Shown: positions 10,201-51,427 of the stretch, piece after piece | Position numbering within the stretch: position 1 is the first letter of the stretch | Layout of the letters: every line of letters starts with the position of its first letter | DNA from: Vitis vinifera | Taxonomy: Eukaryota > Streptophyta > Magnoliopsida > Vitales > Vitaceae | Assembly (NCBI RefSeq): GCF_030704535.1 | Contig: NC_081821.1 | Location: 7,393,001 to 7,457,000, forward strand | Length of the DNA stretch: 64,000 nt | Direction: 5' to 3' | Notes under the pieces: model-generated | What the model was told of the DNA's origin: nothing | Database searches by the model: none | What the model saw: the letters and a program-made list of their open reading frames with translations, nothing else | Program-made: the position numbers and the translations under genes

Positions 10201-13200
10201 AACTGGTGAAAAAAATATTCATCTAGTCAATCTAGTGTGGTTGGGATAGTATTTTATTTAGTGTTCTTATTGGTTTGTTTCTTCTTCCAATGTACTACAC
10301 AAAACAATTCTTAGTTCATTAGAGATATGAACAAATAATTAGAGTACTAAATCATGCAACACTGTTCCTCTGATACACTTATATACAACCTCTTAATGTT
10401 TTGGTCTAAATTTTCAAGAACATGCATAATTTGGTATGCTAATATTATTTACGTGTAATGGCCAACTTTTCTCTCCCTCTCTCTCCATCTCTCTGTCTCT
10501 ACATAAATATGTTTTATGGATTTGGTGATATTATAGGATTAAAAAAAATGACATGCAGACACACAAACCTGGAAGGGAAAAGTCTAGTGTCTTAATATCT
10601 TCCGTCTAATACTATATTTTCTGAATGGTTCATGTGCATTGTGTGTTAATCCATATATAGCTGACAGCTTGGGCTACTATTTTTTTTTTTTTTTTCTCTA
10701 TTAGCCATTCATCCACCCATAGGCATTGTATACACCCACTGGTTAACTACTGAACAATCCGGGATTAGCCATTATGGTTACAAATATTATGCCAACATTT
10801 GGAGGCATAACTTCGCATTAAGATTTAGCCCATTTTTGGTTGTCAATTGGTGACAACCTATGAAGCAAGCTATAATCATGAAGTCCAGTGTGATGCAGAA
10901 CCATGTATCCTGGCATAGCAGGTGTGGAACTTACTGTTAACAAGTAAGGACCTGAGAATCTGTTAAGGCACCAGGGTGTAGCATATGGAAATATATACCA
11001 TGTATTAATTCCACTTGCACTCAAAAACAGCAAGAGGACTGTTTAAGAACATAAGGCAGCATTGAGTGCATAAATTTTTAGCTTTTTTGGATGGGATTAT
11101 GAATGCAGATGAGGAAGACTTTAGGACTAGCAGTCTACCTATATTTCATGTAGTTAAAATGATAATATCATTCCAAGCGTCATATTCTGTAGAAGCATCA
11201 TAACAATTTTCTTTTGAATTCCATTTTCTTTGACTCATGATGATGTGCTATTCTGTTAGGCACTGACAGTATCTCTTTTTATGCAGCAATATTGCTTCTT
11301 CTATATTCATTCTGAGGATAGCTATGATACTTGTGGACCGAGAAGGGATGTGGCTGATGTACCACAGTTATTTATTGTACGTTACAAAAGAAATGCAACT
11401 GTAGACGATTTGAAGGTTGAGAGGAGGCCAAAAGGCATATGGAATCCATTTCAGGAGGAGGATGTGGATCCTGCATCACAGCTTGTGGCAAGGTACAATG
11501 GTTCAGGTGAAATTCCAGAGGTATGGATATCTCCCAGCTGTGCATGCTGTTTTTTACCTTTGCAGATTCCAATTTTATGACTAACTGCTTATGATCACCT
11601 CAGTTTTATATATTGCCAATTCCTACTTTACGACTAACTGCTTATGATCACCTCAGTTTTATATACAGATTCAGTTGATAACCTAGCACATTATTCTTAT
11701 CAGTCTCCCCATGTTGATGTACTCTGTTTGCAGATTATTAAATGGATCTCACAGATAATCAAGGATGGTGACTCCAGGGATCTCCCCCTTTTTGTAAGCT
11801 ACATTTGTAACTCTATAAGCAGGCTCTCTATATATTTTTTCTGCTAGACAACCAATTTTCCTAAAAAGTTTAAACTTTTTAGATTTGGGTCCACAATGTA
11901 TAGAATGCGCTCCAACACCCTCTATCATAGTTAGCCTCTTTTTGGGCTTAATAAAATGGAGAAATAAATATATAGTGAGGTTTGAACACATGACCTTCTC
12001 TTAAATGAGACTCCGATACCATGTTAGACAATCGATTTTCCTAAAGTTAAGCTTATAGGATTTGGGTCCACAATGTATATCATACTCTTTTAACACTCTC
12101 CGTCATGTGCAACCTCATACCTACACATGGAGATATACATGGGCATGTAGGTAAAAACCACAATTAGCTTCTTTTGGGCTATTTAATAAATTAGGGAAGT
12201 GAATATGCGGTGAGGTTTGAGCACAACCTCTCATCAAAGGAGACTGTGATATCATGTTAGACAATCAATTTTCCTAAAAGCTTATGCTCATAAGATTTGA
12301 ATCATGCACTCCAACACCCTCTATAGTTAGCCTCTTTTGGGCTTTAAAAAAATGGACAAACAAATATATGGTGAGGTTCGAACATATGATCTCTCGTCAA
12401 ACGAGACTGATATGCATTGTGGGACCAAATTCTATTAGCTAAAGCTTTTAAAAAAAGCCCTCATTTGGCAGGAGGTAATGTGTTCTTACCTTATCATATA
12501 TTTATTTGTCCACTTTATTAAGCTTAAAAAGAGGCTATCTCTGATAGAGGGTGTTGAAGTGCATGATATACATTATCATCATTATTAATGTTGATAAAAA
12601 TACTTTTTTATTGATTTAAACTGGAGACTTGTTTTGAACTTTGACCATGACAGAGAATTGCCTTATTATTTTGTACCATAAAAGAAACAAATCATTATCA
12701 TCATGCATTGTTAGCATTAAGAGTGATAAATTACCCCATACATCTGAAGGATTGGTCTCAACTTGAGAGGAAGAACTGGTAATCAATCGACCATGCTACC
12801 CACTGTGCATATGCATGTCTCCTTGTACCTATCCTTGTATTTTATTGGCCTTAGTTAAAGCATCTTAGCCTTCAAAATCTTGTTTTTAAATGTTATATCA
12901 TTCCTATTGAGTGGCATCCAAAATATATGACTAATTGCAACAAAATTGTGGATTGCATTGTATTGTAAATGGCAACCATAGAATGGTGATGGACGGTGGC
13001 TAATATTTGAACATACACTGGTTCTATTTTTTGTAAATTTTAGAATGTAAAAGCTGGGGGGTTCAGGAGATTTTCGCTTCTCAGGCCTTTTAGTTTCTTT
13101 TCTCTTTTTCTTTTTCAAGATAAGAACATTTTTTTTTTATCCTTTTTGAATGCAGAGAACAAAAACTCCTCAGCTTGTTCCTGAGGATGGGGATCCTATC

Positions 13201-19484: not shown

Positions 19485-19555
19485 TCATGTCCTCACAACC
19501 CCATGTTCCTGGCTGTCATCAACCAGTTTGAGACCCCAGCTCATGTCCTCACAAT
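19441..19555 (-). repeat. 56-bp tandem duplication at the end of the fucosyltransferase gene
   Basis: The C-terminal coding phrase for CEDMSWGLKLVD is present twice with a period of 56 bp (marker gctgt at 19456 and 19512). Because 56 is not a multiple of three, the second copy is out of frame and the protein ends a few residues into the junction. Confidence 0.9.
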
Positions 19556-22500
19556 GCCTCACGTGAGGAACAAGTGCGCCTGTGTCAACCCCCTTCTTTG
19601 CCTTGCAGTCATAGAAGGGAGGGGCGTGGAAACAAGGCTCCATTGACATGGCTCGGCGACAAGGTGGATCTGGGGCAGTCTGATTTTCAGGCTTGTAGAG
19701 AATCCAAGGTTTTAATCCTCCAAGGCCCTGAGCCACATACCCAAAAGTTGACCATGAACTAGTGACCAACACATCAGTCAAGCTCAGTAGATACATTTCT
19801 GCCCATGCCTTCCTGTTGTGATTCTGCTTCTCAGTTTGTTGATATTCTTCATGACTTGGTTGATAAACGCCTATCACTTCCCCTGTCACAGTTGGGTGTT
19901 CCCAATACATGTTCCTTACTTTCTCAAAGTATCCAGCGCTCAAAGATGTCATGAGTACAGCTTTAGACTTCTTATGTCCATATGAACTAACGACAGGTTC
20001 CCTCATGTTGATTTCTGGCAGCAAATTCTCTGTCATGGTACAAGCTATGATCTGATCTAATACATGTTGGAATGGACCAATCCCAGTGTCAAAGACTCTG
20101 ATCTGGATGCCTATTGTCTCATCTGCTTTAGCTAAATAAGCTTGATAGTACCTGGTGATAAGCCCCCATACAACATTTGTGGGGTGGAAGAGGTATCTGC
20201 CCAAGAAGTGGAAAACCGTTCCCTTTACTGGGAACAGGTTACTGAGTTCTTGCTCAAATGAAGGGATCAAGAAGAGAGATGGAACAAAGTAGTTATCAGT
20301 TTTGATAATTAAACAAGGGATTTTTCGGAGAAAAGATTGATCTTGATTGCAGAAGAACATCTTATCGTGATCATCATAATCATGGACTAGATGGAGATAC
20401 ACATAAGGTGGCAGGATCGACCAACTAGAATCTGTCAAAGTCTTATTCTTGAGCATTTTCCCATAACAAAATGGGGATTTCTGATCAAAGCTGTTAAACT
20501 CATTTTTAAGGGGAAAGTCCAAGGGGAGTAACCAGGAAACCTCGGGAAAAGGTTCACAGAAGAGATCAGGCATGTCAGCTCCAGGATCAACAAGTAGGAC
20601 CCTGTTTGTGAGGATAGCATAAAGAAATGCCGAAGCTAGAGTTAGTATCCTGTTGCCTAAGCCACTGAATGATATCCATACCAAATAGTTGCAATCTGAT
20701 TGCTCCATATGTTGGCCCAACTGGAGTTGTTTCAAGGTACGGTTGTAGGATTCTGTATAGGGTCCACATCGTTTATGAAGAGCTTCATAACTCCGTAACT
20801 TAGAGAGGAGGTAAGAAGAAGGTTTATGCAGTAGTTCTTTGCGATATAAGGCTGATTGGTACCTGCTGAGACAAGATCTTTCATTGAATCCAGCATCAAG
20901 AAGGCCGCCAAGCAGTTTATCTTTAGGTTCCTCGGCTGACCATGAGAGATTATCTTCTGCATCTGTGATTTGAGAAAAAGAAAAAAGGAGAAACAGGAAA
21001 AAAAAAACAGAACAAGAAGCTAATGATAACAGGAATAGCACTTCATAGAAAGTAGAAATAAGATGGATGATATATCATGATCAATATGGTGTTTTAGTAA
21101 GATAATTTCCGGCAGCAGGAAAACCGTCTAACAATTAAGGTGGCATCTGCAAAAAAAAAAAATGTGATTCTTGATGATGACAACAAATTCAGAGAGAAAT
21201 AGAAAACAATTTCTCAAGCAGCCACATTCATTCTCAGCCTTTTATTTTGCATCCCATTGTAAAATTTAATATAATTTAAACTAAATTGGAACTTCAAGAG
21301 CCATAAGAGGAAAAAGGTCTCTGATCCTGTACATTACAAGTACTCCAGGACTTATATGCCAACTACCAACTTGATCGAAAAATATGCAGAAACAAACTGG
21401 AAGCAAAGCAGGATATCGATAAATAAGAGATGAAGAAACAAGTAGTGAAAATGTATCAAAGGAAATATTACTGAGTAAAGTATCTAGAAATCTGGTATAG
21501 TGAACAATAAATATTCAAATGATTTTTATATGTTTTGATAAATTATACATTTCCTTAGGTTTTAAAGGCAGCACTTGTCATGGGAAGCAAATGAACAAGC
21601 TGAGTGAGAAAAGAAGTATCTTAATATTTTCCTTGTGGATCTATTTTACAATGGCAGCCCACACATTTCATCAAAAGATGAAAGTAACTTCAGAAGCAGA
21701 ACCAATCATGAAAACTATAGCAATTTATACTTCTGAAGTACGACTCAGCCTGATATTCCTGATTAAAATAATAATAATAAATTCAATAAAGATGCTATGA
21801 AATTTCTAATTAGCTCTGACATCAGAACCTTTTTACATTGTTTAAATTGATGGAGGGAGGTTTCAACTTAAAAACTAACATCAATGGAAATACAAAATTC
21901 AAAATTAAAATCCATGAATGAAGTTCTGCAATAACTTTACTCGTACCAATATGAACTTAATAGTAAGAAAATTTTCAAGATAGTTCCATGGCAATGAAGC
22001 TTATGGTGCATACTGCTGGGAGCCAAGATACAACATACTAGAAAATGAGGTTAGTTGGAATAAGAATTTAATGATGAATGAGTGGAAATAATAAAATACA
22101 AAAAAAGTAGATCTGTTTTTAATGACATAGAGGAATCGTTTAGGGAGAAAATGTCTCATTTAAGATGGTTTCTTTTCATGCAACAAGTACCAACAATTGA
22201 ACCACCAAGAAGATGTGATTTGATTTAAGTTGATGGGCAGGAAGGAATGCTAAGATGAATGTGGGTCCAAGTAGTGAAAAAAGGTTGTGGTGACTGACGG
22301 GCCCTGCGTAGATATGAATGAGAAATGAATGCATTCACAAGGAGCTAGAGGTGGCACCAATTGTGTAAAACGCCCAAGATAGTTGCCTGAGATGGTCCAC
22401 TCACATGCAATGTAAAGCAATGACTACACTAATAAAGTGGAGGGCTTTATTCAAGTATGAAGGCAAAGATCAAAGAGAACATGGATCAGAACAATCAGAA

Positions 22501-23849: not shown

Positions 23850-24102
23850 TTATGTTCACTTCGGATTGCTGGTTGCAACTCACTTGCATAAAGTCAGAAT
23901 CGCTAGTAATAATTGATTAGCGATATAACATTGAATTCGTTCTCAGGTCTTGTATAGAACGTCAATTACATTATAAGAGTTGGTTGTGCCCAAAGTCATT
24001 ATTTTAACCGCATGAAGGAAAATGTTGAAGGTGAGGCTAATTGTTGAAGTGAAGTTGTAACAAGGTAACCATACTGCAAGATATGGTAAAATGATCTTCT
24101 AA
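23850..24102 (+). pseudogene. rrn16: Plastid 16S rRNA 3' end, nuclear relic (NUPT)
   Basis: Matches from memory the last 240 or so bases of chloroplast 16S rRNA in order: TCGGATTG, GCAACTC, GAATCGCTAGTAAT, TGAATTCGTTC, CTTGTA, GTGCCCAAAGTCATT, TTAACCGCA and GTAACAAGGTAACC, ending near the anti-Shine-Dalgarno region (ATGATCTTCTAA for ATCACCTCCTTT). The central and 3' blocks fit plastid better than mitochondrial 18S rRNA. Most changes are C to T or G to A, as expected for an old methylated nuclear insert. It is not functional, and the flanks are plain AT-rich nuclear sequence. Confidence 0.88.
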
Positions 24103-42595: not shown

Positions 42596-44044
42596 TCACT
42601 CCATGGGGGTGTCTGTCCCCAGAGCACAGTCAGAAGCTCTCATGGTTCTAGTCAGGTGGTCAAGAATCTCATATATCTGAGGCATACATGGATGTTGATC
42701 ATCTGCAGCAACAAACTCTTTAATGTCAATTCCCACTTCAATTGAACTGCAACCTGGATCTCTCCTCTGCTTTATTTGGTTTCTGACTAACATCTTCTTA
42801 TCCCACATGCCTTTGGCAGCATATAAATTTGACATGATGACATTGTCACCAACATGGCTAGGCTCCAGCTCGAGCAGCTGCCGACGGGCTTCTGAGTAAA
42901 TCTTAATGTTGCTGTTGCCGTTGCCGTTGCTGTCACCTTGGAGGCTGCATGCACCTAGCAATGTACGCCACACCACTGCGTTTGGCCGCACCGGCATCTT
43001 CAATATAAACTCATAAGCTTCTGTTAGGAGACCAGCACGGCATAAAAGATCCACCATGCAGCCAAAGTGGGAAATTCTTGGCCTCAAGCTATAATCCTCT
43101 TTCATGCTTCTGAAATGCTGCTTCCCTTCTTCCACAAGACCTGCATGGCTGCAGGCCATTAAAACTCCCATGAAAGTAACATCATTAGGGAGGACTAAAG
43201 AGCTCTCGTGTTCACCATTCCTTTTGTTCTTCCTTGCCCTTTTGTTCGTTTCTTTCATTTCTGTAAAAAGTTGAAGCGCCTCCTCTGCTTGTCCATGCAG
43301 GGCATGCCCCACAATCATGGATGTCCAGGTTGTGACATCCTTCTTCTGCGTACCATCAAACAATCTCCTGGCAGTACCGATCTCCCCACATTTTGAATAC
43401 ATGTTTATGAGAGAATTGTTTAGGCATAAATCTGTATCGAGTCCTCTATGGCGGATGTAAGCATGAATCCATTCTCCCATGTCTAACGCCCCAAGGTCAG
43501 CACAGGCGGAGAGAGCTACAGTTACTGTGACTATATCAGGTTGCACATCATCCATCTGCATCTGCCTGAAGAGCTGAAGAGCTTTATTGGGCCTCTGATT
43601 GTCAACATAAGCAGAAATCACGGAAGTCCAAGAGATGAGATTTTTGGAAGGTATTTCGTCAAACATATTATGTGCATCAGCAACATTTCCCGTTGCTGAA
43701 TACATGCTTATGAGAGATGTTTGGAGGAAAATGATGGGTTCAAAGCCAAAGTTTATGACAAGCGCATGCATTTGTTTTCCTTCTACCAAGGAAGACTTTA
43801 GGGTGCAAGCTTTAAGGGCAAACATGAGGGAGAAGCTGTCAATTGAAGAAGGGTTTTTTCTCAATAAGATGCGAAAGAAAAGGAGAACCTTGCTAGTGTT
43901 ACTGGATTGAAGGTACCTTTTCAGAGTTTGGTTTGATTTTGGTGGTTTGAGGTGAGTATGGAGATGGGCTTTGGGCTGATTGTTAGTTGCAAATAACTTG
44001 GTCACCCTTCTGCCCAATGAAGGGAACCTTCTTAAGAATCTCAT
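42596..44044 (-). CDS. PLS-class PPR protein, E/E+ type
   Basis: Single-exon gene, 482 residues, starting at ATG. PPR proteins bind organellar RNA, and PLS-class members mostly specify C-to-U editing sites. The N-terminus (MRFLRRFPSLGRRVTKLFAT) is basic and acid-free, suiting a mitochondrial or plastid presequence. Tandem P, L and S repeats are clear, for example ISWTSVISAYVDNQRPNKAL, WTSMIVGHALHGQAEEAL and FMGVLMACSHAGLVEEGK. It then has the E-domain block VVWRTLLGACSLQGDS and an E+-like block (PGCSSIEVGIDIKEFVAADD). No DYW deaminase domain follows, so if it edits it would need one in trans. It is short on PPR repeats for the class. Confidence 0.92.
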   Translation of the reverse strand: MRFLRRFPSLGRRVTKLFATNNQPKAHLHTHLKPPKSNQTLKRYLQSSNTSKVLLFFRILLRKNPSSIDSFSLMFALKACTLKSSLVEGKQMHALVINFGFEPIIFLQTSLISMYSATGNVADAHNMFDEIPSKNLISWTSVISAYVDNQRPNKALQLFRQMQMDDVQPDIVTVTVALSACADLGALDMGEWIHAYIRHRGLDTDLCLNNSLINMYSKCGEIGTARRLFDGTQKKDVTTWTSMIVGHALHGQAEEALQLFTEMKETNKRARKNKRNGEHESSLVLPNDVTFMGVLMACSHAGLVEEGKQHFRSMKEDYSLRPRISHFGCMVDLLCRAGLLTEAYEFILKMPVRPNAVVWRTLLGACSLQGDSNGNGNSNIKIYSEARRQLLELEPSHVGDNVIMSNLYAAKGMWDKKMLVRNQIKQRRDPGCSSIEVGIDIKEFVAADDQHPCMPQIYEILDHLTRTMRASDCALGTDTPME

Positions 44045-45137
44045 GAGGAGAAGGTGGCTTCAGGATTGTGTGAAAATACCACAAGAGCACAAAGCTATGT
44101 ATACCAAATGCTGTTAGGTAACTGCTGTGGCACTCCTGTAGAACACAACTGCTTGATCCAAAAATAATCAAAACTGTATTACAAAACTCACATATAAAGT
44201 GTTTACTCTGGGAAATGAAAGTTCTTTAGAGAACAAGGATTATTGACAACTAAATACCTTATCTAAAGTTTCACTTCATGCCCATGTACACAACTACCTG
44301 CCAGACGGGCTGCATAGTACCACCTAGTGCCCACTGATAACAGAAGGGAGTGGCAGTTCAAAAACTCTCAGGCGGGACTCAGCAGAAAACCTAGAGGGAC
44401 TGAGTTGACTCAACAAATCTTTGATTGCAATGCACAAGATTCATGGATTGATAAACTGGTTTCAGTAGGCTTTTTATTGCTATTTCATAGACTGGATCTA
44501 CGCAAAACTGCAAGGATCCAATAATCAGATTTACAGCATAGAAGAGAAAACTAGAACTTTTGGTTAAATGAAAAAATGCTTGCAGTTTTCTTTATTTTGA
44601 ACACTATGAATTCTGAATGGTTTTTAGTCAGAGTGGGATTCTTGTACTGCACTACCTTCTTCTCAGTAACAACACAAAGTTGAAATCTTAAATGGATAGT
44701 GTAGGACCCCAAGGTTCTGAGTTGACTCGATCAAGAGGCTGTACACCTTCTCCACAGAAGCTAAATTAAATGAGATGATTCCCTTAACATTAGGAGCTCT
44801 TCAAAATATGTTTGATCCACTAAACATTAGCACCTCACCAGCACAAGAAAGTACTTCCAGTGCACTTTGAGTCCAAGGTTTATTCATAATAGTGGCATGG
44901 GCATTGTCAACACAATTCTATTGTTTCTATACTCAGGAGGGCATCGATCATGCAATTTCAATATGACATGGTCATTTCTCTGGCTTCAATGAGGAGAAAT
45001 GGGAGTTGCTTTATTTCCTCTCTAACACTTCTTTAAAGGATATCACTCTTCTCATGAGGAAACCACTACCCACAACATAATTTATTGCCCTCATTCATCA
45101 AGATGTGATGTTTTGTATGACCGAGAAAAAGATCCTG
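44045..45137. other. Spacer between two minus-strand PPR genes
   Basis: 5' flank of the E+-like PPR gene and 3' flank of the P-class PPR gene. Short open frames on both strands have no recognisable family features. No repeat or RNA gene seen. Confidence 0.4.
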
Positions 45138-47135
45138 TTACAGGTCATTCAAATTTGAACACCCAATGCCTATCCCTGATAAATCCTCAGAACACCTGAG
45201 AGCTGATTTGAGGTATCCACTCTCTTCATAACCCTTAGCCAAGACCCGGTATACACTACTGTTTGGTATGATACCCATCTTTAGGATATCAGCCTGCAAC
45301 ATCATCACATCACGCAAATGCATGGCTCGGAAATGCCCCTGAATAATGACAATGCAAGTGAACACATCTGGTCTTAAACCAGAGCATCTCATATCTGAGA
45401 AAAACTTACTTGCTTTAAAAATCCTCCCATCCGTGCACAAACCCTGAATCAGGGCTGTATACATCACATGGTTTGGGGAACACAAGCTTCTATCCAACTC
45501 ATTAGTTTTACTACCAGTGGTATCAGTTCCAGTTTTCGCTAAGAAAAGTTTGATTGCATCACTAATCCTTCCATCCTTGCATAATCCATCAATTAAGCAA
45601 CTAAGTGTGAAAACATTAGGATGAAGGCCTGCCTCCTGCATCTCCTTATGAAGCCGGAAAGCTTCTTTTGTGTTGCCATCTTTGAAATGCCCATCAATTA
45701 AAGCTGTATAAGCAACTACATCAGGTAGAAGACCTTTGATTACCATTTCAGTGTACAATCCCATGGCAGCCTCCATTTTCCCTGCCTTGCAATAACCATC
45801 AATCAATGTAGAGAAGGTAATGATGTTAGGCTCTATACCCTTTTCTGTCATTTGAGAACACACCTCTATTGCCTTCTCCATGTTGCCTTCTTTGCAGTAC
45901 CCATCAATGAGTGTATTGTAGGTCACAGCATTCGGAAGGAATCCCTTTTTCTTCATTTCTTGCAACAACCCATCTGCTTCTTCCATTCTATCGACACCAC
46001 AAAGGCCCTTTATTAGTATACTGTAAGTGAAGACATCAGGCAAAATTTCGTGCTTTTCAATCTCTGAATGCAAACTCAGTGCTTCAGAGAGGTTCCCTGC
46101 CTTACAGTAGCCGTCTATCAAACAATTATACACAAATATATTTGGAACAACACCAAAACTAGCCATATCAATCAAAAACTTTCTGGCAGACACCATTTCA
46201 TCTGTTTTGCAAAGTCCATCAATTAAAATACCAAAAGTCACAACGTTTGGCAGCAGACCATCACCTAGCATTTCCTGGTACAATTCAAGGGCTTTCTTCA
46301 CATGGGCTATCTTACAGTATCCATCCATCATTGTGTTGTATGTATACAAATTTGGGAGCATACCCGAATTCCTCATTGTCCTAAACATACTTTCTGCTTC
46401 TGAAATTCTACTCTCACCGCACAGCCCACGTATGAGAATTGTGTATATCACAACCGTTGGGAAAATTTTCTTCTCAATCATTTCATCAAACAACCTGAAT
46501 GCTTTCAAAAAGTCACCTTGTCTACAACACCCATCAATCAATGTCCCATAGGTGACCACATTAGGCGACGCTCCGCGCGCTACCATATCACCATAAACTT
46601 TCCACATCGTATCAAACCTACCCTTCTTAACCAACCCATCTAAGACCATGTTACAAGCCTGCATTGCCGGCAATACATCCATCTTGTAATACACCCACAA
46701 GGCTTCTTCCACAAGACCCATTTCCGAGAAGGCAATAATCAACACCCCAAACACATTGGGAGTGAATTTAGAGCTTTCCAACCGACTAAGAACATTAAAA
46801 ACCGAACAACAAATACGGGATCTCCGAGAATTTTGGAGGCATTGGATGAGGTCTCTCATCAAGCACCTAGCCTTCGCGTACAATTTGGCTCCAGTTAAGA
46901 CATGGATAATTGCTGAATAGAGCTGCGGATTCTTGGCTAAGTCAGCTCGGCGGGAAACTGAGTGGAAGAGCTCGAGTGCTTGGTTAGCCGTTCTGCAGGT
47001 GAGTATAGAGTTAGGGAGACTAGAAGGAGATGAATCTGAAGATGAAGATGATGGAGAAGAAGAGAGTGGTCTCGAGATGAATGAAGAATGCTTGGCGTAG
47101 ATGCGCCTCGATTTTGGTGGGAAGGACTTCAACAT
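45138..47135 (-). CDS. P-class PPR protein, about 16 repeats
   Basis: Single-exon gene, 665 residues, starting at ATG. The N-terminus (MLKSFPPKSRRIYAKHSS followed by a serine run) is basic and Ser-rich, like a mitochondrial targeting peptide. About sixteen 35-residue PPR motifs run from residue 80 to the end, for example VVTYGTLIDGCCRQGDFLKA, LYTYNTMMDGYCKIAHVKKA and AVTYNTLIDGYCKEGNMEKA. There is no E, DYW or SMR domain. P-class proteins act in organellar RNA stabilisation, splicing, cleavage or translation, and many fertility-restorer genes look like this, although this one stands alone here. Repeat 13 has an insertion (TGTDTTGSKTNEL). Residues 5 and 35 of the repeats allow a partial RNA target prediction (see findings). 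Confidence 0.94.
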   Translation of the reverse strand: MLKSFPPKSRRIYAKHSSFISRPLSSSPSSSSSDSSPSSLPNSILTCRTANQALELFHSVSRRADLAKNPQLYSAIIHVLTGAKLYAKARCLMRDLIQCLQNSRRSRICCSVFNVLSRLESSKFTPNVFGVLIIAFSEMGLVEEALWVYYKMDVLPAMQACNMVLDGLVKKGRFDTMWKVYGDMVARGASPNVVTYGTLIDGCCRQGDFLKAFRLFDEMIEKKIFPTVVIYTILIRGLCGESRISEAESMFRTMRNSGMLPNLYTYNTMMDGYCKIAHVKKALELYQEMLGDGLLPNVVTFGILIDGLCKTDEMVSARKFLIDMASFGVVPNIFVYNCLIDGYCKAGNLSEALSLHSEIEKHEILPDVFTYSILIKGLCGVDRMEEADGLLQEMKKKGFLPNAVTYNTLIDGYCKEGNMEKAIEVCSQMTEKGIEPNIITFSTLIDGYCKAGKMEAAMGLYTEMVIKGLLPDVVAYTALIDGHFKDGNTKEAFRLHKEMQEAGLHPNVFTLSCLIDGLCKDGRISDAIKLFLAKTGTDTTGSKTNELDRSLCSPNHVMYTALIQGLCTDGRIFKASKFFSDMRCSGLRPDVFTCIVIIQGHFRAMHLRDVMMLQADILKMGIIPNSSVYRVLAKGYEESGYLKSALRCSEDLSGIGIGCSNLNDL

Positions 47136-48144
47136 CTCTACGTTGGATGGCTTTCTTCGTCCAGCTACATGTTATTCTTAAACCGGAGAAAGATGATCAG
47201 AAGCAGGCAGCAGCGTGTTTTATATATATATATAATAAAGTAAAATAGTAAAATACTACTTCAAATTGTATTAAATTTTTTTGATAAATAATCTTTTTAT
47301 ACTGAACCTGATTTGAATAAAAAAATTAATTTAAAATATATTTTTCTTTAGACAACTGTTTTCAAAATTATTTTCTAACCAAAAAACTACTTTCTATTTT
47401 CTATTATCAATAGAAAACAAATGTAATTTCAAAAAATACTTTTTTGTTGTTTCAATTGTATTCAATTATTTTTTTTAAAGTTGTTTTAAAAATAATTATA
47501 TAAATATGTATAATAATTAAAAATAGAACTTTAATATAAAAATTATTTTTAAAACATATTTAAAAGTATGAAAAATAAGTTAAAAATATTTTAAATTTTC
47601 TAACAAACTTTTATTTTACAAAACATAAGAGAAAATGATTTTAAAAAATGATTTAAAAACTTTTTTTTTTCAAAATTGTTTTAAAAAATAGTTATAAAAC
47701 AAAACTTAATTTAAAAAAAAAAAAAACGTGAAAGACACCTCCCTAAAATCATTTTACTTAAAATATTTATAAAAATTATTAGCATCCTTATAAATATATT
47801 TCATATTTAAAATTTGTTTTTTTAGAATAAAATTTATTTTTTAGTGTAACTTTAAGAACACTTACCTAAAATTTTTCCAAAAAATAATTTTATTAACAAA
47901 ATAAATTTTTAAGGGGTGCTTACTAAAATTAATTTAGGAGAATCTTTTTTTAATAATATATATCGAGAATGATACATGTATTATATAAAAATTTAATTAT
48001 ATTTTTTTTCACTCATAAAACTTAAAGCCAAATAAATTTTAAATTTTATTTTCCAAAAATAATTTTCACTTTTCTTAATAAATAAAATAAAATAAAAATA
48101 CAAAACTTATATATGTGCATAAATTGTGGTGACAATTAAAGGCA
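47136..48144. repeat. AT-rich spacer with a decayed MITE-like copy
   Basis: Very AT-rich. The stretch from about 47345 to 47710 resembles the element at 48145-49235: 'agaactttaatataaaaattatttttaaaacatattt' style sequence continues through the point where the other copy carries the Pack-MULE. It therefore preserves the empty target site (TAAAAATTA at 47537-47545). Confidence 0.55.
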
Positions 48145-48320
48145 TGTTTAGGAACTATTTTTTAGAACAATTTTTTGTTTTTTATAAAAAAAAACACGTT
48201 TTACAACAAAAAAAAAATCAAATAATATCTTTTAATTGTTTTATATTGTTTTCATTTATTTTTTTAAGAAATAATTATACTGTAAAATGATTAAACATAA
48301 AACACTAGATATAAAAATTA

Positions 48321-49073
48321 AGGTTTAATACACTTTGCACCCTCAATCTCAACCTATTACGTGTTTTGCACATTACCCCTTTAGATTTAAAACCAAATAC
48401 ATTGCACCTCATGCTTCTTAAATTGCAGTACTTTGCCTTGATTGCTAGAAGGTGTTAGTTTTTGTGGATAAAAATATCACCACGTGACTGATTAATGAAG
48501 GGTAAATTTGGAAAATCCTAACCCTAAGAAACCCTCAAATAGCTCTCATAGCTCTGTCTTTGTCCTATGGGGGGTGACAGCGGTGACACTGTGTACAAGG
48601 TCCTCCACAAGTTGACGAGGAGGTTGTACGCCTTGAAGGTGATCTACAGAAACCACGAGGACGTTGTGCTCCACCAAATCTATTGAGTAATCGAGATCCT
48701 TAGAGATGTGGATAACCCCAACGTGGTGAAGTGCCATGACATGTACGACCACATCGGCGAAATCCAAGTGTTGTTGGAGCACATGGATGATGGATCTCTT
48801 GAGGAGACTCACATCGTTGATGAGCTTGCTCTCTCCGATATCGCTATTCAAATCCTCTTCGGCCTTCACTACCTTAATCGTTGAAAAATTGTACACTGCG
48901 ACATCTAAAGGTGACATCGATGACATTTTCGTCCACAAAAACTAACATTGTCCAGTGATCAAGGTGGAGTGCTGCAATTTAAGAAACATGAGGTTCAATG
49001 TATTTGATTTTAAGCCTAAAGGGACAATATGTAAAACATGCGATAGATTGAGGGGACAAAGTGTATTAAACCT
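48321..49073. mobile_element. Pack-MULE (non-autonomous Mutator-like element)
   Basis: Terminal inverted repeats of about 150 bp begin AGGTTTAATACACTTTG at both ends and stay alignable inward through 'ttaaattgcag', 'ccttgat' and 'gttagtttttgtgga'. The element is flanked by the 9-bp direct repeat TAAAAATTA (48312-48320 and 49074-49082), the hallmark duplication length of Mutator elements. It has no transposase. Its interior is a fragment of a protein-kinase gene of host origin. Long TIRs, 9-bp duplication and captured gene together define a Pack-MULE. The TIRs differ by roughly 15 percent by eye, so it is not new. Confidence 0.9.
48573..48905 (+). pseudogene. Captured MAP kinase kinase (MKK4/5-like) fragment
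   Basis: The plus strand reads as kinase subdomains I to VIb of a group C plant [13 protein letters not shown] (glycine loop), [13 protein letters not shown] (with the ATP-binding lysine), [52 protein letters not shown] and KIVHCDI (HRD changed to HCD). It has in-frame stops: one after HQIY, one before KIVHCDI and one right after it. The sequence stops before the DFG motif, so the fragment cannot be an active kinase. It is GC-richer than its AT-rich surroundings, fitting capture from a coding exon. MKK4/5 genes lack introns, so a DNA or cDNA source cannot be told apart. Confidence 0.88.
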
Positions 49074-49765
49074 TAAAAATTATTTTTTAAAACATATTTA
49101 AAAAATATTAAAAAGAGGTTAAAAACATTTTAATTTTTCAAATAGACTTTTTTCCACAAAAATTATAAAACAGTTTTAAAAAACTATTCTTAAAAATTAT
49201 TTTTCAAAATTATTTTCAAAAAATGGTTACCAAACAAACTCTAAAATATTCATTTTGTTGCAATTAAATTTATTTACTATTTTGATTTCATTTTATGTTA
49301 AAGAAGAATTAGGATAGGAAAGAAAATTATTTTTTAACGTCTTTCTTGCAACATTTAATAAATAAAATGTTTTTTTAATTCTTTTTATACTAACAAATGA
49401 ATTCATCTAACTCCTTTTATTCCAAATTTCATTAAATAAATTAATTTTTTAGGATTTGATTCTAGACACAACAATGGGTTTCGGATTTTATTTAGTAGAA
49501 TGCACAAATATAAATGATAATATTCTGAGAACTTTTTTAATATTTATTTTGCGCAGCTTATCTTAAAAATTCCGAATTTTAATTGTTATAAAATATTTAT
49601 ATTTTAATAATGTGAAAAACAACATTAAGATAAATATCTTATAAATTTGTTTTCTATGCTTCTTTCATTTCTCCTGCTTTTGAAGGGAAGTCGGCTTTCG
49701 TACGTTGTTACTAACAGTGCAAAGTTACGGGAGTGAATGACCGTTGAATCTCATCCCTTTTTCAA

Positions 49766-51427
49766 ATGTTAGTTGAAGAAGCAAGTCCCGCCAATTTAAC
49801 AGGTTTAAGAGCTCTACAACAACACTTCTTCTCTCTATTACAGACCTGCGACACCATAAAGAAACTCAAGCAAATTCACACCCAGATAATCGTCAATGGC
49901 TTTTCCCAAAAAAATTTCCTTCTCGTTAAGCTCTTGTCTTTCTACATAACTTCTGGTAATCTCCTAAATGCACATAAAGTTTTTGAACGTATTGAAAACC
50001 CAAGTACTACTGTTTGGAATCAAATGATCCGAGGGCATTCTCAGAGCGAAACGCCCCATAAGTTGGTTGAGCTTTACAATCGAATGGTAGAGGCTGAGGC
50101 TGAGCCCAATGAGTTCACGTATTCGTTTCTTATTGGTGGTTGTGCGCGGTCGAGGTTGTTGAGAGAGGGCGAGCAGGTGCATGGAAGAGTTGTGGCAAAC
50201 GGGTATTGCACTAATGTGTTTGTTCGGACGAGTTTGGTTAATTTGTATGCGATCGCTGGGGGATATGATGGGGTAAGGAAGGCACGCCGGGTGTTTGATG
50301 AAATAGTTGATAGAAATATAGTGAGTTGGAATTCGTTGCTTGCAGGGTATGTTAGGTGTGGGGATGTTGATGGGGCACGGAGGATTTTTGATGAGATGCC
50401 GGAAAGGAATGTTGTCTCGTGGACAACCATGATTGCAGGATGTGCGCAAATTGGGAGGTGTAAGCAAGCGTTACATTTGTTTCATGAGATGAGAAGGGCC
50501 GGTGTAAAATTAGACCAGGTGGCATTGGTGGCAGCTTTGTCAGCCTGTGCTGAATTGGGGGACTTGAAGTTGGGGACATGGATCCACTCTTACATTGATG
50601 AGAGACTGCATGCTGGAAATCAGCCATTGCTTGTGTCTTTGAACAATTCGCTCATACACATGTATGCCAGCTGTGGTGTAATTGATAAAGCTTATAAAGT
50701 ATTCATAGGGATGCAACAGAGAAGCACTATTTCTTGGACAAGCATGATCACAGGTTTTGCAAAACAAGGCCATGCAGAAGAAGCTCTTGGTGTGTTTCAG
50801 TGGATGCAGAGGTTGGGAACGGATGAAGGGAGACCCGATGGGATAACCTTCATTGGAGTTCTGTGTGCCTGCAGCCATGCTGGATTTGTCGACCAAGGCC
50901 GTCATTTTTTTGAATGCATGAATAAAAAATGGGGCATTGTACCAAGGATTGAGCACTATGGATGCATGGTTGATCTCCTGAGCCGTGCTGGCTTCTTGGA
51001 TGAAGCACATAGACTCATTGAGTCTATGCCTATGAAGCCAAATGATGCTGTATGGGGTGCTCTTCTTGGTGGATGCAGGATTCACAAGAATGCCGAGCTT
51101 GCTTCCCATGTTGCTCAAAAATTGGCACTTGAGCTTAAACCTGATCAAGCTGCAGGCTATCTTGTGCTACTGTCAAATGTTTATGCTACTGCTAAAAGGT
51201 GGCAGGACGTTGCTTTAGTGAGACAGAAGATGGTTGAGATAGGTGTAAGAAAGCCTGCAGGCCGAAGTTGGGTCCAAATAAATGGAGTTGTCCATGACTT
51301 TGTGGCAGGTGACTGGACTCACAAGCATGCATCTTCAGTATATGAGATGCTTAGCAAGATTACAAGGCAAGCCAAATTGGAAGGCTACAAACTGGACATT
51401 TCAGAGGTGCTTTTGGACGTTGAATAG
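49766..51427 (+). CDS. PLS-class PPR protein, E+ type
   Basis: Single-exon gene, 553 residues, starting at ATG. Predicted organellar RNA-binding protein of the editing-factor class. PPR-like repeats include TVWNQMIRGHSQSETPHKLV, IVSWNSLLAGYVRCGDVDGA, VVSWTTMIAGCAQIGRCKQA and TISWTSMITGFAKQGHAEEA. The E domain (AVWGALLGGCRIHKNAELA, then LLSNVYATAKRWQDVALVRQ) and an E+-like tail (GRSWVQINGVVHDFVAGDWT) follow, ending in LLDVE without a DYW deaminase domain. It is oriented away from the two minus-strand PPR genes. The N-terminus has no strong presequence, so the destination is uncertain. Confidence 0.93.
   Translation: MLVEEASPANLTGLRALQQHFFSLLQTCDTIKKLKQIHTQIIVNGFSQKNFLLVKLLSFYITSGNLLNAHKVFERIENPSTTVWNQMIRGHSQSETPHKLVELYNRMVEAEAEPNEFTYSFLIGGCARSRLLREGEQVHGRVVANGYCTNVFVRTSLVNLYAIAGGYDGVRKARRVFDEIVDRNIVSWNSLLAGYVRCGDVDGARRIFDEMPERNVVSWTTMIAGCAQIGRCKQALHLFHEMRRAGVKLDQVALVAALSACAELGDLKLGTWIHSYIDERLHAGNQPLLVSLNNSLIHMYASCGVIDKAYKVFIGMQQRSTISWTSMITGFAKQGHAEEALGVFQWMQRLGTDEGRPDGITFIGVLCACSHAGFVDQGRHFFECMNKKWGIVPRIEHYGCMVDLLSRAGFLDEAHRLIESMPMKPNDAVWGALLGGCRIHKNAELASHVAQKLALELKPDQAAGYLVLLSNVYATAKRWQDVALVRQKMVEIGVRKPAGRSWVQINGVVHDFVAGDWTHKHASSVYEMLSKITRQAKLEGYKLDISEVLLDVE

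Follow-up and report, generated by a model that had tools for sequence, protein, structure and literature searches.

A probable Pack-MULE carrying a decayed fragment of a putative group C MAPKK between two divergent PPR frames

In a stretch of 64 kb of DNA, referred to here as the window, an insertion of 753 bp was delimited at 48321–49073. We assign a probability of about 0.9 to the reading that this insertion is a small non-autonomous Pack-MULE which contains a piece of a group C MAPKK gene, was inserted in trans and has decayed since. According to this reading, some 340 bp from the coding region of a group C (MKK4/5-like) MAPKK would have been taken up by the element. A MULE transposase supplied in trans would have placed the element between two PPR genes of divergent orientation, and the TAAAAATTA duplication would go back to a staggered cut of 9 bp made at insertion. 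After the insertion the element would have decayed, probably while methylated, and the captured piece would make no kinase. We infer the capture by the element from its anatomy; mobilisation in trans, methylation and silencing we infer as well.

The insertion site is a very AT-rich gap with a GC content of 0.13–0.20 (measured for 47250–48249 and 49125–49624). This gap is bordered on the left by a PPR frame on the minus strand (45138–47171) and on the right by a PPR frame on the plus strand (49748–51427). As the two frames are divergently oriented, the element is situated on the upstream side of both. A third PPR frame of the window is found at 42599–44059, so that three such frames are clustered within 42599–51427, including the divergent pair on either side of the element. 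The gene content of the window also includes a xyloglucan fucosyltransferase frame (19488–21074), and from this gene content we take the window to be nuclear DNA of a plant, probably of a dicot. At 23959–24089 the sequence matches the bacterial-type SSU rRNA (model positions 1389–1520) with 51.6 bits at a gathering score of 50; this fragment is perhaps an insert of organelle DNA.

Terminal inverted repeats and target site duplication

The TIRs were delimited by aligning the two arms to each other. The left TIR (48321–48479, plus strand) comprises 159 bp and starts with AGGTTTAATACACTTTG, and the right TIR (48921–49073, minus strand) comprises 153 bp. Identical bases are found at 126 of the 153 aligned positions (82.4%, indel excluded), leaving 27 mismatches and one 6-bp indel, and the outermost 17 bp of both arms are free of mismatches. 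With strict scoring the arms reached a score of 156, whereas 2000 placements with this geometry, chosen at random from the window outside 48000–49400, gave at most 130. With loose scoring the arms reached 198, and the random placements gave at most 194, none of the 2000 attaining the score of the element. A smaller null for the loose scoring (300 placements) had a top score of 190, which came from another inverted repeat near 11.85 kb, and a runner-up of 137, which overlaps the element itself. The top placements of both the strict and the loose nulls start near 11.8–11.9 kb, over this other inverted repeat; when starts at 11000–12700 were removed, the maximum of the loose null was 135.

In that part of the window an inverted-repeat pair is present at 11895–12009 and 12460–12574, with arms of 115 nt that are 83% complementary. 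Adjoining this pair, a TTAGACAATCxATTTTCCTAAA-like unit occurs in direct orientation three times, with copies located at 11844, 12024 and 12257. A GATACCATG-like sequence comes before two of these copies and is reminiscent of the complement of a tRNA-Met primer site, and the repeats at 11844–12574 are possibly a nested small LTR-type repeat.

The sequence TAAAAATTA directly abuts both ends of the element, at 48312–48320 on the left and at 49074–49082 on the right, and the two copies match at nine of nine positions. This is the sole 9-mer identity among 1679 offsets examined at the same spacing within 47300–49750, and two random intergenic 9-mers of this locality match by chance with a frequency of 2.2e-4. 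Among 13 symmetric boundary shifts that were compared, the boundary 48321/49073 resulted in the longest duplication. The earlier note on this DNA had described TIRs of about 150 bp and a 9-bp direct repeat on both flanks, and both features are borne out by the alignment.

A point against the preferred reading is that the duplication is situated in AT-rich sequence. If the boundary is moved one base inward, so that the element reads GG...CC, it is flanked by a TTAA repeat, a palindrome, instead of the 9-bp duplication, and a reading with a 2-bp TA duplication is formally possible. Such boundaries would assign the element to another TIR superfamily (Pack-TYPE) with a TTAA (piggyBac-like) or a TA (mariner-like) target duplication, the 9-bp match having arisen by chance. 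The TIRs of piggyBac and mariner elements are short. Although the junctions TTAA/GG...CC/TTAA are as this origin demands, and gene capture is described for other TIR superfamilies too (PMC8903248), the extra bases of the 9-bp repeat would have to agree by chance, which is a rare event for 9-mers as given above, and long TIRs are described as the pattern of MULEs (PMC3310237). We therefore consider an origin from another superfamily highly improbable.

MULEs, as they are defined in PMC3310237, have target site duplications of 9–11 bp and TIRs of typically 100–500 bp, and for library construction the TIRs were required there to be at least 100 bp long and 80% similar. Both TIRs of the element exceed these thresholds in length (159 and 153 bp) as well as in identity (82.4%), and the duplication, matching at 9/9 positions, has the lower of the lengths given for MULEs. 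Between the TIRs lies a fragment of a host gene, since the MKK5 match described below is bounded by them. An element of 753 bp, in which the longest stop-to-stop frames comprise 131 codons in antisense and 71 codons in sense orientation, leaves too little room for a transposase and is non-autonomous. Long TIRs, a 9-bp duplication, a host-gene fragment and the lack of transposase room thus support, on anatomical grounds, the classification as a Pack-MULE that had been put forward before.

Apart from the element itself, no second copy of the TIR was found in the 64-kb window when it was scanned with the 16-bp TIR end allowing for up to three mismatches. The scan returned both ends of the element and a single match with three mismatches at 47262–47277, which we take as a chance match because three or more matches also turn up in 16 of 100 shuffled sequences. 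Neither the TIR end and the TIR core in viral contigs nor the TIR core in prokaryote genome contigs gave a match (0 matches in each case), which is uninformative for a plant element.

The captured kinase piece

The inner part of the element contains on the plus strand, at 48567–48905, a piece of MAPKK coding sequence of the MKK4/5-like type (group C) comprising subdomains I to VIb, which was identified with phmmer and by alignment. Its 113 codons align without a gap to MKK5 (PDB 7xbr), 73 of the 113 residues being identical, and the phmmer match to 7xbr_A has an E value of 1.2e-39 and a score of 138 bits. Among the best 60 of 219 matches, the next-best solved structures were those of MEK1 with about 49 bits. 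The MKK5 of this structure we take to be the Arabidopsis protein. The designation MKK4/5-like is a tentative one, as it is based on the MKK5 match in a comparison with solved structures and on the typical sequence of the family. The internal plus-strand MKK stretch with subdomains I–VIb that the earlier note had read from the letters is confirmed by the match to MKK5.

Between the left TIR and the kinase piece there is a subterminal stretch of 87 bp (48480–48566), which belongs neither to the TIR alignment nor to the MKK match; it may go back to the ancestral MULE or may have been captured as a second fragment. On the other side a junction of 15 bp (48906–48920) separates the end of the kinase piece from the right TIR.

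The homology starts at the glycine loop and stops at HRDI. Within this region there are two in-frame stop codons, TGA at 48684–48686 and TGA at 48882–48884; the position of the glycine loop is occupied by GGDSGD, and HRD is replaced by HCD. No significant homology to MKK5 corresponding to the DFG motif or the activation loop was detected after 48905. The set of glycine loop, HRD, DFG and activation loop that characterises an intact kinase is therefore not present in 48567–48905. Since two TGA codons, a degraded loop and HCD coincide with the lack of a match to DFG and the activation loop, no working kinase can be made from this sequence, and the captured fragment is a dead kinase pseudogene.

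Nominally, the local alignment to MKK5 reaches 48956, crossing three stop codons and a gap of eight residues on the way. We ended the alignment at 48905 because the right end alone scored no better against MKK5 than 60 of 200 mononucleotide shuffles. For the left TIR together with the subterminal stretch (48321–48566), 30 of 200 such shuffles reached the observed score; for the left flank (48001–48320) and the right flank (49074–49400), 188 and 142 of 200 shuffles, respectively, scored as well as the native sequence. Kinase homology continuing past the TIRs had been named beforehand as an observation that would speak against a Pack-MULE; with MKK5 as the reference, no significant signal was found in the TIRs or the flanks.

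These results also bear on the notion that a degenerate MKK pseudogene came to lie between two inverted repeats by chance and that no transposition took place. The kinase piece is indeed a decayed fragment, as this explanation requires. However, the significant homology is located entirely within the TIRs, and the whole is flanked, directly outside the TIRs, by two identical copies of the duplicated sequence, so that we regard such a coincidence as very unlikely and retain the Pack-MULE as the preferred reading.

In its composition the kinase piece stands apart from its surroundings. Its GC content is 0.481 compared with 0.13–0.20 in the flanking regions, its GC3 is 0.664 compared with 0.42–0.47 in four gene frames of the window, and its observed/expected CpG ratio is 0.82 compared with 0.28–0.49 in four gene frames of the window. 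The contrast in GC3 and CpG is consistent with an origin of the piece in another gene. Genes for MKKs of groups C, D, and E are described as intron-free in most cases (PMC5975520), which fits a kinase fragment without traces of introns. A search for relatives of MKK5 in viral contigs gave one pattern-matching stretch, which was not confirmed.

Antisense frame, transcript folding and decay

An open frame of 131 codons plus stop runs on the minus strand across the kinase piece (48546–48941) and is codon-aligned to the kinase frame. It is open across the 113 kinase codons because these do not include TTA, CTA or TCA. Back-translations of MKK5 are antisense-open over 113 codons in 2.5% of the cases at a GC3 of 0.65 and in 5.4% at 0.70, and when the core was shuffled 2000 times by mononucleotides, a frame as long as the antisense one arose 20 times. 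In the Pfam check of the element, which covered the antisense frame, no match was obtained at E values up to 0.001. Having no Pfam match and a length that is weak in relation to these nulls, the frame was dismissed as evidence for a gene. The antisense frame pointed out in the earlier note thus exists and is mildly unusual. The further proposal made there, that the element could yield RNA directed at the parent MKK, found no support in our analysis. The frame is irrelevant in this respect, since antisense RNA needs no open frame to act on its parent.

We considered whether the element could be a working regulatory locus, in which a hairpin or antisense transcript would give rise to siRNAs silencing the parent MKK4/5 gene. 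The RNA of the whole element is predicted to fold at -301 kcal/mol compared with a mean of -188 kcal/mol for shuffled sequences (sd 6.7, n = 20), and in the folded RNA 136 of the 159 bases of the left TIR pair with the right TIR. For maize, a review describes Helitrons, Pack-MULEs and Sireviruses that carry captured sequences as sources of siRNAs able to silence the donor genes (PMC13317346). However, such folding is expected of any element with long TIRs, and the predicted hairpin consists of the TIR stem, whereas the kinase piece is placed in the loop, outside the long duplex. The transitions between the TIRs show no preference for RNA pairing, as 13 of them result in G-U and 11 in C-A in the plus-strand RNA; with no clear bias in these numbers, selection for an RNA hairpin was rejected. 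The antisense frame, being only mildly long, adds little to this proposal. A donor silencing by way of a TIR hairpin transcript would be possible judging from the predicted fold, but a working regulatory locus appears very unlikely to us. For the more specific version, a live trans-acting locus in which read-through from a flanking PPR promoter would produce a TIR hairpin with MKK sequence in its loop and siRNAs tuning MKK4/5, we consider the chance extremely small. The element would gain in importance only if small RNAs derived from the fragment reached its parent gene, MKK4/5, which codes for a kinase of immunity and stress responses.

The decay of the element was followed in the TIRs and in the kinase piece. 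The 27 TIR mismatches consist of 24 transitions and 3 transversions. When classified by the context of the cytosine arm, changes were found at 5 of 6 CG sites, 18 of 53 CHH sites and 1 of 3 CHG sites, two end sites being unclassed. The probability of the transition bias is 0.008 if two-thirds of the changes are assumed to be transitions, 0.067 at 0.75, and 0.18 at 0.8. This suggests a loss of methylated cytosines in the TIRs, the bias being moderate against a transition-rich background. The CpG ratios of the TIRs, 0.22 and 0.42, derive from only one and two CG sites. In the kinase piece, 11 of the 40 residue differences from MKK5 can be explained by a single C-to-T or G-to-A step; the others would take a T-to-C or A-to-G step (2), a transversion (13), two steps (13) or three steps (1). 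Methylation decay of the kinase piece was therefore discarded, there being no clear excess of C-to-T or G-to-A and a CpG ratio that is still 0.82. As this excess is missing and MKK5 is not the donor, the claim of methylation decay is confined to the TIRs. No firm age can be derived from the divergence of the TIRs, since the two arms of an element that is non-autonomous may have differed already at the time of insertion.

Comparison with known elements

In the open-licence PMC literature no paper was found that combines 'Pack-MULE' with 'kinase kinase', and 'MKK' was absent among the matches listed for papers on gene capture. A search of the same literature for TTAATACACTTTG gave a single match, a paper on a cattle virus that is unrelated by its title. 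Compared with the intact MKK5, a group C plant MAPKK, the captured piece has two stops, carries HCD for HRD and shows no significant match beyond subdomain VIb.

The grapevine Mutavine MULEs, according to their description in PMC2528002, have 9-nt duplications where these were found and have captured genes, as is probably the case here too. In the same source, ULP gene sequences downstream of a transposase are described for Mutavine elements; the comparison with them is one of descriptions. Rice Pack-MULEs (Jiang et al. 2004, cited after PMC13317346 and PMC8903248) likewise combine a non-autonomous MULE with a fragment of a host gene. For rice, more than 3,000 Pack-MULEs from more than 1,000 genes are given in PMC13317346, and a table in PMC3310237 lists 46 for Arabidopsis, 220 for tomato, 2853 for rice and 276 for maize. 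Captured fragments are mostly non-functional according to the 2026 review, which also states that numerous ones are expressed and have signs of selection (PMC13317346).

A detailed counterpart is the tomato Pack-MULE PM-ZIBP-1, a single-TIR element as described in PMC3310237. It is 944 bp long compared with 753 bp for the element analysed here, and its TIRs are 87% identical compared with 82%. Its 9-bp duplication, TTTTAAATT, is AT-rich, as is the one found here. The cargo of PM-ZIBP-1 is derived from a gene for a zinc-ion binding protein and that of the present element from an MKK gene, both being fragments of host genes; the PM-ZIBP-1 family also includes 13 copies with tandem TIRs (PMC3310237). 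Measured against Pack-MULEs as these sources portray them, the identity of the captured gene is the sole departure of the present element, which adds one Pack-MULE to the several thousand described and is an ordinary example of its kind.
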